From Deltaproteobacteria bacterium (GTDB lineage Bacteria; Desulfobacterota; Desulfomonilia; Desulfomonilales; Desulfomonilaceae), in the NCBI GenBank assembly GCA_016875095.1, contig VGSG01000003.1:62001-126000 (forward strand): DNA of 64,000 nucleotides, given 5' to 3'. The translations under genes were made by a program, and so were the position numbers. The notes under the pieces were generated by a model, which saw nothing but the letters and a program-made list of their open reading frames with translations, was not told the DNA's origin and did not search any database. Positions within the stretch are counted from its first letter, which is position 1. Every line of letters begins with the position of its first letter. Positions 366 to 19,279 of this stretch are shown here, one piece after another.

Positions 366-1484
366 CTACCAGAGCCCGGGTAGCAGACCGGCGCCTGTGC
401 GGATCGGCGGCTGAGGCTCATCGCTCGCAGCCGCGCGCTCGGGGGCGTCCGGTGATTCCTGAGCCGCGACCCGAGTGCGTGGCAGGTCCTGATTGATGCC
501 CAAAGCCAGGAAATTCTGCTTGAATCGCTGGGAAAACCAGTACAGCGCCTGATGGCCGTTGGGATAGCGATACGCGCAGTACCCGTGGCCGCAGCTCTTG
601 AAAACGCTCACGGTGACCGGGAAACCCGCGCCCCTCATGGATTGAACAAGATGGTACAGGCGACCGCCATTGCTATAGGTGTTGCAGCCATCCCGCTCGT
701 TGGTATTGATGTTGTACGCGATGCCTCCGGCTTTCTTTATCCGTTGGATGTTCTGTTCAAAGACCGGGTTTGTGGTGGGATAGCTTCCAAGATCGGTCTG
801 TTGGCCTCCCACATATGCGAAGATCTCGGGATGGCGGGCTGAGATCATAATTGCTTGGGCAGCGCCCGCACACGCGCCGTCAATGCCCCTGAAGCGACGA
901 TCGGGCACGGTGCGGTAATGCGCATCTATGAACGGGATCACTTCTTCGAGGAGGTACTTCTCATACTGGCCTGTCGCGCCCCCCCCGGGATTCCATAGCG
1001 ATACCACGATCAGGTCCTCATACGGGCTCTCGGAAAGCCACCGGTTGAACAAGGCGAGCTCTTCGTCGGTGATATTGTCTTGGAAGTCGGTCTTGGTGAG
1101 TTTCCCAGCCTGGAGATGGTCCATGGTGAGTGGGGTTTTACACCAGACAGACCAGTATGTTGCGCCGCCTTTTTCCGGTCCGTTGTCCCATCCTGATTTC
1201 CCGCCAAGGAGATAAACCACGCCGTACCGACGATTGACGTTGGTCTCGTAGTCGTCCGGAAGGATCACATGGACCGGGAATGGGCTGGAAACCGTCCCTT
1301 GCTTGGATTGGACGCTCCGGTAGGTGTCCGAATGAACTCGGACCACTTCAATGTAGTGCTTTGTCCTGAGGAATTTGGTTCGAGCCTCGATCTGGGCCCA
1401 CGGCTCTTCACGAGGCGCTGCCCAAATGGGAAATCCCACAGCCACGATAAGGACCACGAGCAACAATTTCATGGCTACTTTCAT
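366..1484 (-). CDS. Exported alpha/beta-hydrolase, esterase-D/FrmB fold, Cys in the nucleophile elbow
   Basis: 372 residues with a signal peptide (about 1-23) and GGAGGAAATT before the ATG. The fold matches the putative-esterase family (PF00756 type): an early 'YGVVYLLGG' strand, the elbow near 200-207, and a C-terminal 'CGHGYCAYRYPNGHQALYWF' segment like the family's catalytic-His block (H300). The elbow reads G-A-C-A-G, so Cys205 stands where Ser is expected; D265 could be the acid. Dienelactone hydrolases use such a Cys, so activity is possible, but loss of esterase function is equally open. The C-terminal 40 residues are a Pro/Ala-rich tail. It lies 37 bases after the NlpC-like gene on the same strand. 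The substrate is unknown. Confidence 0.72.
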   Translation of the reverse strand: MKVAMKLLLVVLIVAVGFPIWAAPREEPWAQIEARTKFLRTKHYIEVVRVHSDTYRSVQSKQGTVSSPFPVHVILPDDYETNVNRRYGVVYLLGGKSGWDNGPEKGGATYWSVWCKTPLTMDHLQAGKLTKTDFQDNITDEELALFNRWLSESPYEDLIVVSLWNPGGGATGQYEKYLLEEVIPFIDAHYRTVPDRRFRGIDGACAGAAQAIMISARHPEIFAYVGGQQTDLGSYPTTNPVFEQNIQRIKKAGGIAYNINTNERDGCNTYSNGGRLYHLVQSMRGAGFPVTVSVFKSCGHGYCAYRYPNGHQALYWFSQRFKQNFLALGINQDLPRTRVAAQESPDAPERAAASDEPQPPIRTGAGLLPGLW

Positions 1485-1521
1485 AATTTCCTCCGAGTCG
1501 AGTTCGACAATATCAATCCGG

Positions 1522-3378
1522 CTACCGCACCTGTATGTTGTAAACCTTTACCGGGAACCCCTGCTGATCCACGGTATCAGACGAAACCGGATCCATCAAT
1601 ATCACGCTGCTCTTCACAGCTACCCCCCGTATAGCGCAACGGATGTACAGCGGATAGGTTCCCGGCGGGCCCGCCTGTATTTTGGCTTCCAGCTCATGCG
1701 TCTTGTTCTCGCCCCACAGTTCGATCCATTCTTCCGCCATGGGAACTTTGGTCTTGATCTTGTCCTGCGTTATGGACAGAACCGTGCTGCCTCGACCGTA
1801 TATCTTCCCAGGTCTGGCGGAAACCAATTTCAGACCGTGCGGATCGGGCGCGGACAGCGTTATGCCGCCATAATCCGACTCCTTGCCCTGATTCCGCGCT
1901 GCAACCTTTACGGAAAAAGTCTGGCCCGAGGCCACCGTAGCCGGGATTTTTACGTCAATGATTTTGGGTTCAGCGTCCTTGAGGAAATCAACCTCAAAGA
2001 CGTTGGCGCACCACTTCTCACCGTCTACATGCGCTTCCATCCCATATTTGCCCTGATCCAGACCGCCGCGACTTCCTCGGGCAAAGTCCCTGGGATAGAC
2101 CACAACCAGGTCCTTGCCGCCCTGCAAAACCTGGCCCTGGTAACGGAAGTCGCCGGCGGGGCCTCTCAACAAGAGGCTCAAATCGCGCGGCCTGCCGCCG
2201 TTGTTTCTGAACGAGAACTTGATCGCTTGTTTGGAGTCGTCAGCGAACCGCGGGATCTGCGTCACCAGGTCGGGGAAGCTGCGGAAAACCTTACCCGAAA
2301 GATGGCTGATGGTCAGATTCGCCAGTGGATCCGGTCGCGTAGCAGGCGCGGGCTGCGGTCTTGACGGTTGAGGTTGAAACTCCTCTTCTTCCGAGTCGGC
2401 TCGACTCGTGGGGTTTGCGCTCAATTGGGCCGTGTCTCTCGCAACCGGCCTGACGTTGTCCAGGATCTCCATAGCCTTGAGCGCCAGTCGGTCCTCCGAA
2501 CTCGCAGAGGCCGCGGACTCCGGCGCTTGAAGCGGTCCTCCCGCTGTGGTTGCCGGGGCCTTGTCTTGGTCGCGCCCTGGGGGTAGGGCTTCCACGATCA
2601 GGATCTTCTTTCGGTCATGTCCCGAATCCCGGAATTGCGCCCAGAGTCGGTTGATCCCGCCCGCGGTGTTGATGTTCATCTTGTGGGCCCGGCTGCGGCG
2701 GGTGGAGTGGTACAACCAAACGCCGCCTTTCTCATCCGGAATCATCAAGACCACGTGATAATGGAGCACCCGCCGAGGATTGCCTGTTTCTCTGCTTATG
2801 CTGCCTAGGTAGATCTTACCGGGCTGCATTTGCCGGAGCACCGCGGCCCACGCGTTTCCATCCTGCAAGTCGAAACCTCGGAGGGAGAGACCGTCCGAAG
2901 TGTCAAGAGGATGGGGTCGGGTGTCGGGCATGATGACGCGGCGAGGCGCGTGCTCGGTGACGTTGAGGATCAGATCGTATCCGAAATCCCAGTCCTTGCC
3001 GAAGGCCGCGTTCGCGCCGCTGTTCTTTTGGCGGTCTCTCGTAGCTTGTTCCAAGGAGAAATTCTTATTGAAAAGGAACCTTGCAACGGAAAGCACCAGA
3101 CCACTACAATTGAGCCCTGGGGTGTCATAAACCCGATCAGGTCTATTGAAAGTCGTGAAGTAGCCTTTATGGTCGATGGTTCCGTCATCCCGGTAGGGAA
3201 TTCCCAGGCACGTGTCCGCGATCTCCAAGGGGTTGGTCTTAACGGCGATCCCCCGGTCGTACAGATACGCGGGCACGAAGATCTCTTCCGCGAGCGCGGG
3301 TGTCAGGCTAATGAAGGCGCAACAGAGGCTCAGCAGCGCGAGGGTCGGCGCCTTCATCCTGTATCGGGTTTTTTTCAC
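1522..3378 (-). CDS. Exported NlpC/P60-like (papain-fold) protein with Ig-like C-terminal domains
   Basis: 618 residues from a GTG start chosen because GGAGG lies four bases upstream (3383-3387); an ATG at 3357 is the alternative. A KK-R n-region and hydrophobic core make a signal peptide ending at ALA-EE. The N-terminal domain has a Cys in 'GLNCSGLVLSVARFLF' (about C91) and His residues in 'LHYHVVLM' (about 206-208), the Cys/His pattern of NlpC/P60-type peptidoglycan hydrolases or amidases. A Pro/Ala/Ser linker (about 270-345) leads to two beta-rich regions resembling CARDB/Ig-like domains (about 350-618). Upstream is divergent with the molybdenum hydroxylase; downstream is the esterase. A cell-wall or secreted-substrate role is likely, but the exact reaction is unknown. 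Confidence 0.55.
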   Translation of the reverse strand: MKKTRYRMKAPTLALLSLCCAFISLTPALAEEIFVPAYLYDRGIAVKTNPLEIADTCLGIPYRDDGTIDHKGYFTTFNRPDRVYDTPGLNCSGLVLSVARFLFNKNFSLEQATRDRQKNSGANAAFGKDWDFGYDLILNVTEHAPRRVIMPDTRPHPLDTSDGLSLRGFDLQDGNAWAAVLRQMQPGKIYLGSISRETGNPRRVLHYHVVLMIPDEKGGVWLYHSTRRSRAHKMNINTAGGINRLWAQFRDSGHDRKKILIVEALPPGRDQDKAPATTAGGPLQAPESAASASSEDRLALKAMEILDNVRPVARDTAQLSANPTSRADSEEEEFQPQPSRPQPAPATRPDPLANLTISHLSGKVFRSFPDLVTQIPRFADDSKQAIKFSFRNNGGRPRDLSLLLRGPAGDFRYQGQVLQGGKDLVVVYPRDFARGSRGGLDQGKYGMEAHVDGEKWCANVFEVDFLKDAEPKIIDVKIPATVASGQTFSVKVAARNQGKESDYGGITLSAPDPHGLKLVSARPGKIYGRGSTVLSITQDKIKTKVPMAEEWIELWGENKTHELEAKIQAGPPGTYPLYIRCAIRGVAVKSSVILMDPVSSDTVDQQGFPVKVYNIQVR

Positions 3379-16149: not shown

Positions 16150-17226
16150 TTAATCGATCCTGAGCTGTATGCCTCGGCTGGCAGCCCGCTGGAAGTACCA
16201 CTCCACGATGTTTTTCGGGGGCTCGGTCTGGGCTGCTTCAGGTCTGCGTTCCAGCTTGATGGAATCTGTGGGGCAAGTGGGAGCGCACACGCCGCATCCG
16301 ATGCATCGCTCCGGAATCACCTTGTATGAGCCGTTGTCTTCCACGATTGCTTCCATGGGGCATCGCTCGTCCGCGCACACGCCACACGCCGCGCACGCGT
16401 CCTGGTCAATCGCGGCTACGAAGTTACTCCTTGCCATAAGGTACGGCGCGTTAAATTCCTTCACACCACGCATGATACCGCAGCAGCATGAACAGCAATT
16501 GCAGACGAACATTTGGCCTGTCCGAACATTGTACGTGTTATGCACCAGGCCTTCTTCCTCGGCCTTGGCCAGGATGTTCAGGGCTTCTTGTTTCGAAATA
16601 ATCCGGCCTTTTGCATACTTGTCGAACGCTCCCTCATGATTGGCAAACGCGAGACAGACTTCCATAGAATGTTTGCACGGTTTTCCCTGCAGCGCGCGTT
16701 CTTTGCGGCAGATGCAATTCACCACTTGGAAAGCCCTGGCCCCTTCCATCATGGCCGCGATATCCTCGTACGGGAGCACTTGTTGTTCCAGCTTGGTCTG
16801 GAGATTGACCGGGACCACCCTCAGGAGCGCGGGAGCGAACTGTCCCACCGTGCGCATGAGCGTGGGGCCGTACTCCTCGATGAGTTCCACCATCTCTTTG
16901 TCAAGCCGATTCAGTTGGAACTCAAAGATCCCCACTACAAACGGGACGACCATATACACCTGCTCGCCCTTCATTTTGGCGGACCCGATCTGGCCTTTGT
17001 CCACCATATTGTCTAGGATGGGCTGGAGTTCGTCCAGTGGTATGCCGAGGCGCTCTGATATAGCCTGAGCCGTTTCGGGTATGGGCCTCAGCTTGAGGGC
17101 CATCTCAGCTTCCTCGGGAGTGTATATTCTCTTGAGGATCTTTAACTCCACTCCGCTGTCGCTTGCGGGAAATCCGTTGGGCAGTCCGTCCAGCTTTTCT
17201 GCAAGCCGTTTGTACACATCGGTCAT
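16150..17226 (-). CDS. Multi-cluster 4Fe-4S protein with N-terminal winged-helix-like region
   Basis: 358 residues; AAGGAGCGACACT before the ATG. Residues about 30-95 look like a small winged helix ('IPETAQAISERLGIPLDELQPILDNMVDKGQI'). The middle has Cys sets 'CICRKE....KPCKHSMEVC' and the dense 'CNCCSCCCGIMRG' (about 244). The C-terminus is a 2[4Fe-4S] ferredoxin with CAACGVCADERC and CIGCGVCAPTC. Similar proteins recur in anaerobes next to dehydrogenases and reductases, but no named function is established. It lies downstream of the flavodoxin-SCP2 fusion on the same strand, with a hairpin between. Electron transfer with the flavodoxin is inferred. Confidence 0.75.
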   Translation of the reverse strand: MTDVYKRLAEKLDGLPNGFPASDSGVELKILKRIYTPEEAEMALKLRPIPETAQAISERLGIPLDELQPILDNMVDKGQIGSAKMKGEQVYMVVPFVVGIFEFQLNRLDKEMVELIEEYGPTLMRTVGQFAPALLRVVPVNLQTKLEQQVLPYEDIAAMMEGARAFQVVNCICRKERALQGKPCKHSMEVCLAFANHEGAFDKYAKGRIISKQEALNILAKAEEEGLVHNTYNVRTGQMFVCNCCSCCCGIMRGVKEFNAPYLMARSNFVAAIDQDACAACGVCADERCPMEAIVEDNGSYKVIPERCIGCGVCAPTCPTDSIKLERRPEAAQTEPPKNIVEWYFQRAASRGIQLRID

Positions 17227-17407: not shown

Positions 17408-19279
17408 TTAGCCGGACTTCTTCCCTCTGCCGAACAAGTCCTTCATCCGCATCAGTAGGGATAGGTCCCCAGCCGTCCTATATTTCTGCTGCATGAACAT
17501 TTCTTGGCCGTCTGCTTTCCCGGTGATGATGTCCATCCAAGTGTCGAAAGGGGACTCAATGACTAAATCCGGTTTTTCTGACTCCCCGACCGCCGCCCCC
17601 ACCTTTCCGTCATCGATCCTGAAGTGGCATGCCCCCTCGACTTCGCCGGAAAAGCGAAACTGAATAGTAGCCTTAGTTTTGGCCGCGTATTCAGCGTTGA
17701 ACCCCATGGGCATGATCATCATGAAGGTTTCGAGAGAATCAGGACGCACCCGCAGATTCTTTTTGTGAAACTCTTTGGGCGTCACGCCCTCTCGGATACA
17801 CGTTTTCCAAAAAACGTTCGCCATCTTGGCAAAGGTGTCGAAATCGCCCCCGATGGGCCTCATGATCCGCTCCATCGTAGCATCGGAGACTTTGAGGGAC
17901 TGCGCCAGCTCTCGGCCGGCCTGGGTCGTGGCTTCAAGGATGTCATTGGCCCCCACCGAGAACTCGGGACGGTTCATTACTTCGGCCGCGGGTCGATAGA
18001 TCTCGGCGATCAGTCCTTTGCCGAACAGGAAGTTCACGTACGAGGAGAGCTGCGTGAAGACGGCCGGCTCGGGAAATCCGGCTACGGACAAGATCACGGC
18101 TTTGGGAGGCTCTTGGCGCCGCGGATGATAGGTCTTCCCGTCGCGGCGATGAAGAAACGGCTCCGACATCGGAAGTGTCCGTTCAATAAAGGCTTTCATC
18201 GCCGCGTTCACGGTGTAGTGATACAGAGGCGTGGCATAGACCGCGATGTCGGCTTCCAACCACTTGGAGAACAGCTCATTGGTCATATCGTCCTTCTGGA
18301 CGCAGACTCCCGGGGTCTTTGTCCAGCAGGTGAAGCAGCCGATGCAGTTTTTGACCGTCTTTTCGCGGAGCCGAATCGTCTCCACCTCCGCGCCCGCGTC
18401 GAGCATCCCCTTCACCAGCGCCTCAAGCACCATTCCAGTCTTGCTGACCCCGTCAACTCTCGGGCTCGAGTTAATAGCGAGAACTTTCATGGCGGTCTCC
18501 TGTTTCTCGGATTGTGTCTGATAGGAAGGTTTCGCGGCCCCGGTTGACAAACCCGGAGCGAGGTCCGGCCTGACGGATTGAGGGATCGCAGCGGCTAATT
18601 GGGGAACCGCGCGGCCCTCTCCAATAGGGGAGATGTCACCCGCGGCGGCAAGGGACATCTTTCGCATCTCTGCGAGACCGGGCAGGCCAAGACGCTTGAG
18701 GTAGAGGTCCGGAAACCGAAGATTCAACGGAACGCCAAAGCCGACGATAATCGCGATAGGAATCAGCGCGCGGGTTACAACCGACGGATAGATGCTCAGC
18801 ACGATGCAAGTCGCAAAGATACCTGACCAGATAAAGGTCATGATTCGATTGATACGCACGAAGATCGGATTGCCCCAAACCGCCTGGGGTGTGTATTTCT
18901 TGGCATAGTGATAGGTGAAGGGGTCCAATCCGAGCATCGGCGGAACAAAAGCGACTGCGAAGAGAGTAACGTAGATCCCGGTCACCGCATACTCCGTGAG
19001 GATCGTTCCGGCCGCTTGGCGCCACAGAGCAAGAGACAAGGTAATCACCAGAAAGTAACCGAAGATCGCCCAGTCAAAGTAGGTCGGCTTGTCCCATTGG
19101 CGCGCCAGCAAAAGAATGCAAACGCAATAGACGAGCATAGCGCTGGCCGCGATGAGCAAGACGCCGGGTTCTTTCCCTAATGACGCCCAAATCTTGAAAA
19201 ACGCCAGAGCGGGAAAAGGAGCCACGTAGAGAAAGGTCTGTCGGGCTTTGGTCAATGTTGGCATTGGGTCCCTCGCCAA
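17408..19279 (-). CDS. Membrane domain - flavodoxin-like NAD(P)H oxidoreductase - SCP2 fusion
   Basis: 623 residues in one frame. Residues about 12-190 hold six hydrophobic segments, followed by a loose linker (about 205-260). From M264 comes an FMN-reductase/iron-sulfur-flavoprotein fold ('MKVLAINSSPR', 'NCIGCFTCWTKTPGVC', 'YATPLYHYTVNAAMKAFIER'). The last 100 residues are an SCP2 sterol-carrier domain ('GEVEGACHFRIDDGKVGA', 'GKADGQEMFMQQKY'). The flavodoxin Met has its own excellent ribosome site (see 18490-18501), so the frame may yield both a fused protein and a free 360-residue flavodoxin-SCP2 protein. The SCP2 part suggests a hydrophobic substrate or lipid. The downstream Fe-S protein could be its electron partner. 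Confidence 0.78.
   Translation of the reverse strand: MARDPMPTLTKARQTFLYVAPFPALAFFKIWASLGKEPGVLLIAASAMLVYCVCILLLARQWDKPTYFDWAIFGYFLVITLSLALWRQAAGTILTEYAVTGIYVTLFAVAFVPPMLGLDPFTYHYAKKYTPQAVWGNPIFVRINRIMTFIWSGIFATCIVLSIYPSVVTRALIPIAIIVGFGVPLNLRFPDLYLKRLGLPGLAEMRKMSLAAAGDISPIGEGRAVPQLAAAIPQSVRPDLAPGLSTGAAKPSYQTQSEKQETAMKVLAINSSPRVDGVSKTGMVLEALVKGMLDAGAEVETIRLREKTVKNCIGCFTCWTKTPGVCVQKDDMTNELFSKWLEADIAVYATPLYHYTVNAAMKAFIERTLPMSEPFLHRRDGKTYHPRRQEPPKAVILSVAGFPEPAVFTQLSSYVNFLFGKGLIAEIYRPAAEVMNRPEFSVGANDILEATTQAGRELAQSLKVSDATMERIMRPIGGDFDTFAKMANVFWKTCIREGVTPKEFHKKNLRVRPDSLETFMMIMPMGFNAEYAAKTKATIQFRFSGEVEGACHFRIDDGKVGAAVGESEKPDLVIESPFDTWMDIITGKADGQEMFMQQKYRTAGDLSLLMRMKDLFGRGKKSG
18488..18501 (-). promoter_or_regulatory. 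Strong internal ribosome binding site and ATG inside the fusion gene
   Basis: On the minus strand AGGAG (18497-18501) lies six bases before ATG (18488-18490), exactly where the flavodoxin domain begins. This is better than any site near the annotated upstream start. It suggests translation of a separate flavodoxin-SCP2 protein, or that the membrane part became joined by loss of a stop codon. Confidence 0.6.

Follow-up and report, generated by a model that had tools for sequence, protein, structure and literature searches.

Architecture of the locus

In the window, by which we mean the whole 64-kb stretch of DNA that was analyzed, a single minus-strand frame runs from an ATG start to a stop codon and encodes a 618-amino-acid protein composed of a six-helix membrane domain (M), an FMN-reductase/flavodoxin domain (F), and an SCP2 domain (S) (Table 1). 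Pfam places FMN_red at residues 259 to 363 (E = 2e-16) and SCP2 at residues 525 to 611 (E = 1.2e-12), with no match in residues 1 to 200. An AlphaFold model of the 618-residue protein (mean pLDDT of 89, with 70 aligned sequences) begins with a bundle of approximately six transmembrane helices within residues 1 to 191 and continues with a linker, a flavodoxin-like domain, and an SCP2 domain. The open reading frame (ORF), the Pfam matches, and the model bear out the initial annotation, which had described one frame with six-helix membrane, flavodoxin-fold, and SCP2 parts. It had also placed the gene at positions 17408 to 19279, and a 623-residue minus-strand ORF with a TTG start does occupy this interval; however, the ATG at 19264 is the likelier N-terminal start because its pairing with the anti-Shine-Dalgarno (anti-SD) sequence is better (-6.9 kcal/mol, compared to +0.4 kcal/mol for the TTG at 19279, which lacks an SD sequence).

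Table 1. Positions of the fusion gene and its features in the window
Feature	Positions	Strand	Basis
M-F-S fusion gene, whole	17408..19264	-	ORF and Pfam; intact homologues in 4 other genomes of the family
SD-like GAGGGA ahead of the N-terminal ATG	19269..19274	-	-6.9 kcal/mol pairing at the ATG
M, six-helix membrane domain, residues 1-194	18683..19264	-	Models and VC0807-like profile match
Linker, residues 195-258	18491..18682	-	Disordered at 211-253; pLDDT under 50
Internal Shine-Dalgarno AGGAG	18497..18501	-	SD kept in 18 of 18 fusions
Internal ATG (residue 259), where free F-S (360 aa) putatively starts	18488..18490	-	Start codon conserved
F, flavodoxin-fold, FMN-reductase-like domain, residues 259-505	17750..18490	-	Pfam FMN_red, Foldseek, phmmer
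C-x2-C-x2-C-x7-C motif (C307, C310, C313, C321)	18302..18346	-	Invariant in F rows with letters there
S, SCP2 lipid-carrier-like domain, residues 513-618	17411..17728	-	Pfam E = 1.2e-12; PDB 4uei, 3cnu

Fused, split, and free forms in relatives

When 60 relatives were searched, the full fusion was matched in G003, G007, G012, and G008 at 61 to 66% identity, in each case as one ORF; the named relatives are Desulfomonile/Desulfomonilaceae MAGs. In G001 (loci L014/L060), M is interrupted by a frameshift, possibly an artifact of assembly, and F-S can be read there only from a later ORF. With M alone as the query, 6 of 18 family genomes gave strong matches, the window's own included, and 42 of 395 genomes of the phylum had M-like matches, 43 rows in all. 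The loci behind 30 of these rows were retrieved; the other 13 rows were weaker, and three of them (G004, G005, and G011) entered through the family M search. Domains in the fetched loci were called with profiles built from the loci themselves.

Fourteen of the 30 fetched loci carry M-F-S as one ORF. They belong to two lineages of the fusion, which differ in the length of F and in the F-S spacer: type I, with the window gene and that of G003, and type II, with 12 fusions from seven further families of the same phylum. The remaining fetched loci have M fused to S, M alone, one frame in the order M-S-F, and one split pair. The M-S-F frame (L079 of G120, positions 1459 to 2655) reads through M, S, and the start of F and ends at the contig end. 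At the split locus (L064 of G338, positions 1471 to 3194), the order is PadR-M-F-S, with a stop codon and about 24 nucleotides between M and F-S, likely a picture of the pre-fusion state. At five loci (L045, L050, L051, L054, and L055), an M-SCP2 fusion gene adjoins a flavodoxin-SCP2 gene, so that both partners bring an SCP2 domain. Free F-S genes, which lack M, are common across the class and phylum. Some genomes of the same family have F alone, and at L033, L035, L037, and L038, from one genus of this family, an F domain 66 to 69% identical to that of the window stands without M and SCP2. The plasmid collection gave partial matches without the fusion, with query coverage short of 80% in all 20 matching records, and the one literature collection that we searched for SCP2 with flavodoxin held no description of the M-F-S architecture.

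The initial annotation did not recognize this domain combination as standard and proposed looking for full-length and split homologues, taking homologues always in two genes as the mark of a local read-through. The architecture is not unique, since the same fusion is present in the family and in a second lineage of 12; one-ORF homologues occur in four other family genomes, the split form in G338, and free F-S genes in many others. The linker is open in frame 0 in all 18 fusions compared (6 type I and 12 type II), while stops occur in frame 1 in 9 of them and in frame 2 in 11. The fusion is therefore recurrent and is not a local read-through. The linker is P/A-rich and nearly saturated at the amino acid level. 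Its length in type I is 63 to 64 residues in all six fusions despite a mean identity of 0.19, as would be expected of a tether whose length matters.

In a tree of F-S (49 rows), a long branch parts type I from type II, and free F-S genes branch on the type I side. In a tree of M (37 rows), the grouping of both fusions' M domains in one clade was rejected (p-AU = 4e-7, with a warning from the program about long branches). Because the F-S tree separates the two types and a single M clade is rejected, two origins of the fusion are likely, although not proved; the alternative is repeated fission of one old fusion. The M of the G338 split form is nearest to that of type I. The nesting of free F-S genes within fusion clades suggests that M was also lost in some lineages, in type I by G005 (support of 99) and in type II by L003. 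The latter belongs to a free type II flavodoxin-SCP2 gene (L003/L005) in the window's own genome, on contig C4 at about 65548 to 66726.

A conserved start signal at the flavodoxin boundary

The initial annotation had drawn attention to an AGGAG six bases upstream of the flavodoxin methionine, and the window sequence confirms this spacing. All 18 fusions have an in-frame start codon at the F boundary (ATG in 17, TTG in 1) whose anti-SD pairing is at least as strong as -7.4 kcal/mol, the window copy being the weakest at that value. Among the other in-frame ATGs of the same ORFs, this value is reached by 2 of 131 in type I and 15 of 196 in type II, and the F start has the strongest SD of all in-frame ATG, GTG, and TTG codons in 11 of the 18 fusions. 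A scan of alignment columns found 18 others in type I and 11 in type II with a start codon in at least 75% of rows, and these had an SD in at most 17% and 58% of rows, respectively. In free type I F-S genes, the same column is the start codon of the gene (ATG or GTG) in 28 of 28 rows, with an SD of -7.4 kcal/mol or stronger in 27.

Nucleotide identity in the SD block (-14 to -8) is 0.61 in type I, compared to 0.24 to 0.41 in blocks further upstream, and 0.65 in type II, compared to 0.28 to 0.34. The amino acid identity across the six SD-region codons is only 0.24 in type I and 0.22 in type II, so it is the nucleotides of the SD and not the residues that are kept; the internal SD is also read in differing codon phases among the fusions. 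When codons were shuffled synonymously with the residues kept fixed, 15 of the 18 genes attained the same SD strength in over 5% of their shuffles. The SD is thus not improbable in a single gene, and since such shuffles do not exclude chance, the case for the internal start rests on conservation across genes. By that measure the internal start is more than chance, and the fusions have the conserved SD and in-frame start codon that characterize genes with internal in-frame translation. The possible internal start of the initial annotation is therefore present in every fusion as a conserved nucleotide signal.

Relatives and predicted chemistry of the domains

The structure search with Foldseek matched F to azoreductases and quinone reductases, and phmmer matched it to the flavone reductase 7d38 (E = 2.7e-9). 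F scores far below the cutoffs of the NCBIfam equivalogs for FMN-dependent NADH-azoreductase and quinone reductase, so the likeness to these is one of fold only. Four cysteines are invariant in F (their columns have letters in 50, 49, 49, and 49 rows, the surplus row being a stray from the M domain), with a last spacing of x7 in the window and type I and of x5 in type II. This arrangement, together with the FMN_red/flavodoxin fold, agrees with the compact motif C-x2-C-x2-C-x5-7-C by which an excerpt of PMC3164229 describes the Isf family. Because the four cysteines are invariant, F appears nearer to an iron-sulfur flavoprotein or quinone-reductase-like enzyme than to a plain FMN reductase; the FMN-reductase fold of the initial annotation is upheld by Pfam FMN_red, and the type of enzyme is what shifts. 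F probably carries FMN and probably also a [4Fe-4S] cluster. The accessible part of the flavone reductase (FLR) paper (PMC7862272) mentions neither iron nor cysteine, so that relative gives no case for an Fe-S cluster in F.

S scores 48.5 bits against Pfam SCP2 (PF02036), above the gathering score of 21.3, and matches solved SCP2 proteins in the PDB (4uei and 3cnu). SCP2 domains bind lipids.

M is predicted with pLDDT values of 89 and 91.5. In profile comparison, it matches VC0807-like standalone membrane proteins with 98% probability, and we regard it as an unnamed family with a remote likeness to VC0807. The window M has no match to the VC0807 family NF041646 (cutoff of 65 bits), for which the best scores among the matches listed for related proteins are 31.6 and 38.8 bits. 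Membership in IspZ/YciB (PF04279) was considered and rejected: the window M has no hit at the Pfam gathering score, genome G000 has no match, and a direct comparison of the M profile to one IspZ sequence gave a probability of 17%. M alone has no significant match in the PDB (best Foldseek E of 1.1), so we draw no function from its fold; in a VIA structure search, the best match (Z of 8.0) was to ion channel and receptor helices.

Neighboring genes

The type I fusions in G007, G012, and G001 have a PadR gene (Pfam) directly ahead of them, and that of G003 has one upstream at a distance of one gene; the regions examined did not include G008. A PadR gene is likewise found before the G338 split pair and before the free F-S gene of G005, where it ends just short of the gene. 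There is no PadR match anywhere in the 64-kb window, the window's own locus included. A MerR gene precedes 9 of the 12 type II fusions and was not found before those of G310, G269, and G212. That two unrelated regulator families flank two lineages of the same architecture suggests that expression is probably inducible. Just downstream of the fusion gene in the window (16150 to 17226, minus strand) is an Fe-S protein, weakly TrmB-like at its N terminus, that stands beside the fusion in 1 of 20 other loci compared (G003).

Proposed function and alternatives

We think it slightly more probable than the contrary that this is a dual-product gene for an inducible FMN/Fe-S reductase with an SCP2 domain, made in tethered and free forms and acting on a lipophilic substrate. 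Translation from the first ATG would yield a protein integral to the inner membrane, in which a flexible tether of about 64 residues links the helix bundle to the reductase and SCP2 domains, putatively on the cytoplasmic side. Initiation at the internal SD and ATG would yield the same reductase-SCP2 enzyme free in the cytosol. The SCP2 domain would most likely take a quinone- or enone-like lipophilic compound from the bilayer and present it to the flavin, and the tethered form would serve the membrane and the free form the cytosol. Expression is probably inducible, in keeping with the usual PadR gene ahead of type I and MerR gene ahead of type II. Within this proposal, we have good confidence that dual translation is the best account of the conserved internal start, while reduction of a lipophilic substrate by F-S is a reasonable inference that could go either way.

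The internal signal might instead be a mere relic of recent gene fusion, with only the full-length protein at work. The split form in G338 has its own SD, so the SD probably predates the fusion, and the shuffles leave chance standing in 15 of 18 genes. However, the linker identity given above and a fourfold-site identity of 0.37 to 0.41 in M and F-S (0.27 being expected from composition) point to time enough for erosion, and still all six type I fusions keep the SD and start codon, one of them as a TTG that is a leucine inside the frame. With the same conservation in the second fusion lineage, we judge the relic explanation unlikely. It is decidedly unlikely, in our estimate, that F-S from the internal start is the sole important product and the read-through M-F-S incidental. 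M does seem dispensable, given its apparent loss in G005, the free F-S genes without M in relatives of the class, and the frameshift in the M of G001; against this stand the P/A-rich linker, open in frame in every fusion and constant in length in type I, the apparent double origin of M-F-S (with one M clade of both lineages rejected), and the occurrence elsewhere of M fused to S or adjoining F-S.

We give little credence to a protein that handles lipids or envelope components, in which M would be an envelope protein akin to YciB/VC0807 and F would sense redox state rather than catalyze. The remote kinship of M to VC0807-like proteins and the lipid binding known for SCP2 domains fit such a role, but the VC0807 matches listed with scores all lie below the family cutoff, the IspZ comparison is poor, and F retains an enzyme-like fold with invariant cysteines.

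If the dual-product proposal is correct, two compartments receive the same reductase from one gene, which is a simple means of acting on a substrate dissolved in the membrane without giving up a soluble pool. In addition, a ribosome-binding site within a coding frame would be able to long outlive a gene fusion, in parallel lineages, and the pattern of a conserved in-frame ribosome-binding site could be sought in further fused genes. Through its linked regulators and SCP2 domain, the gene would offer a testable route to a lipophilic electron acceptor in these anaerobes. We are evenly divided on the broader view that bacteria have come to this design repeatedly, with translation alone dividing an anaerobic redox enzyme that bears a lipid carrier into tethered and free forms, the fusion having at least two origins, the old ribosome-binding site being kept each time under selection, and PadR or MerR exerting control.

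Comparison with known systems

The free F-S proteins of Desulfobacterota relatives share the start codon, cysteines, and SCP2 domain of the fusion (most type I members are 47 to 67% identical), and some are also preceded by PadR; they lack M and have one product only. F resembles the Isf family in its flavodoxin fold and compact cysteine motif, a comparison made with the motif as worded in PMC3164229, whereas here F is fused to SCP2 and to a membrane domain. The best sequence and fold matches of F, namely, FLR (PDB 7d38), FMN azoreductases, and NAD(P)H:quinone oxidoreductases, act on quinones, azo dyes, and flavones; the matched chains have no SCP2 or membrane part and are 14 to 20% identical over the fold. 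The VC0807 family and IspZ (YciB, septation protein A) are, like M, membrane proteins of about 200 residues with weak profile similarity to it, but M falls below every curated cutoff shown, has no PDB match to the IspZ fold, and has a block, PFT...A...W...F...W, that is peculiar to it. In Cas11, translated from an internal in-frame start of cas8, one gene likewise gives two in-frame products, according to PMC11899642; the proteins are unrelated, and here the short product would be the whole enzyme freed from its membrane anchor.
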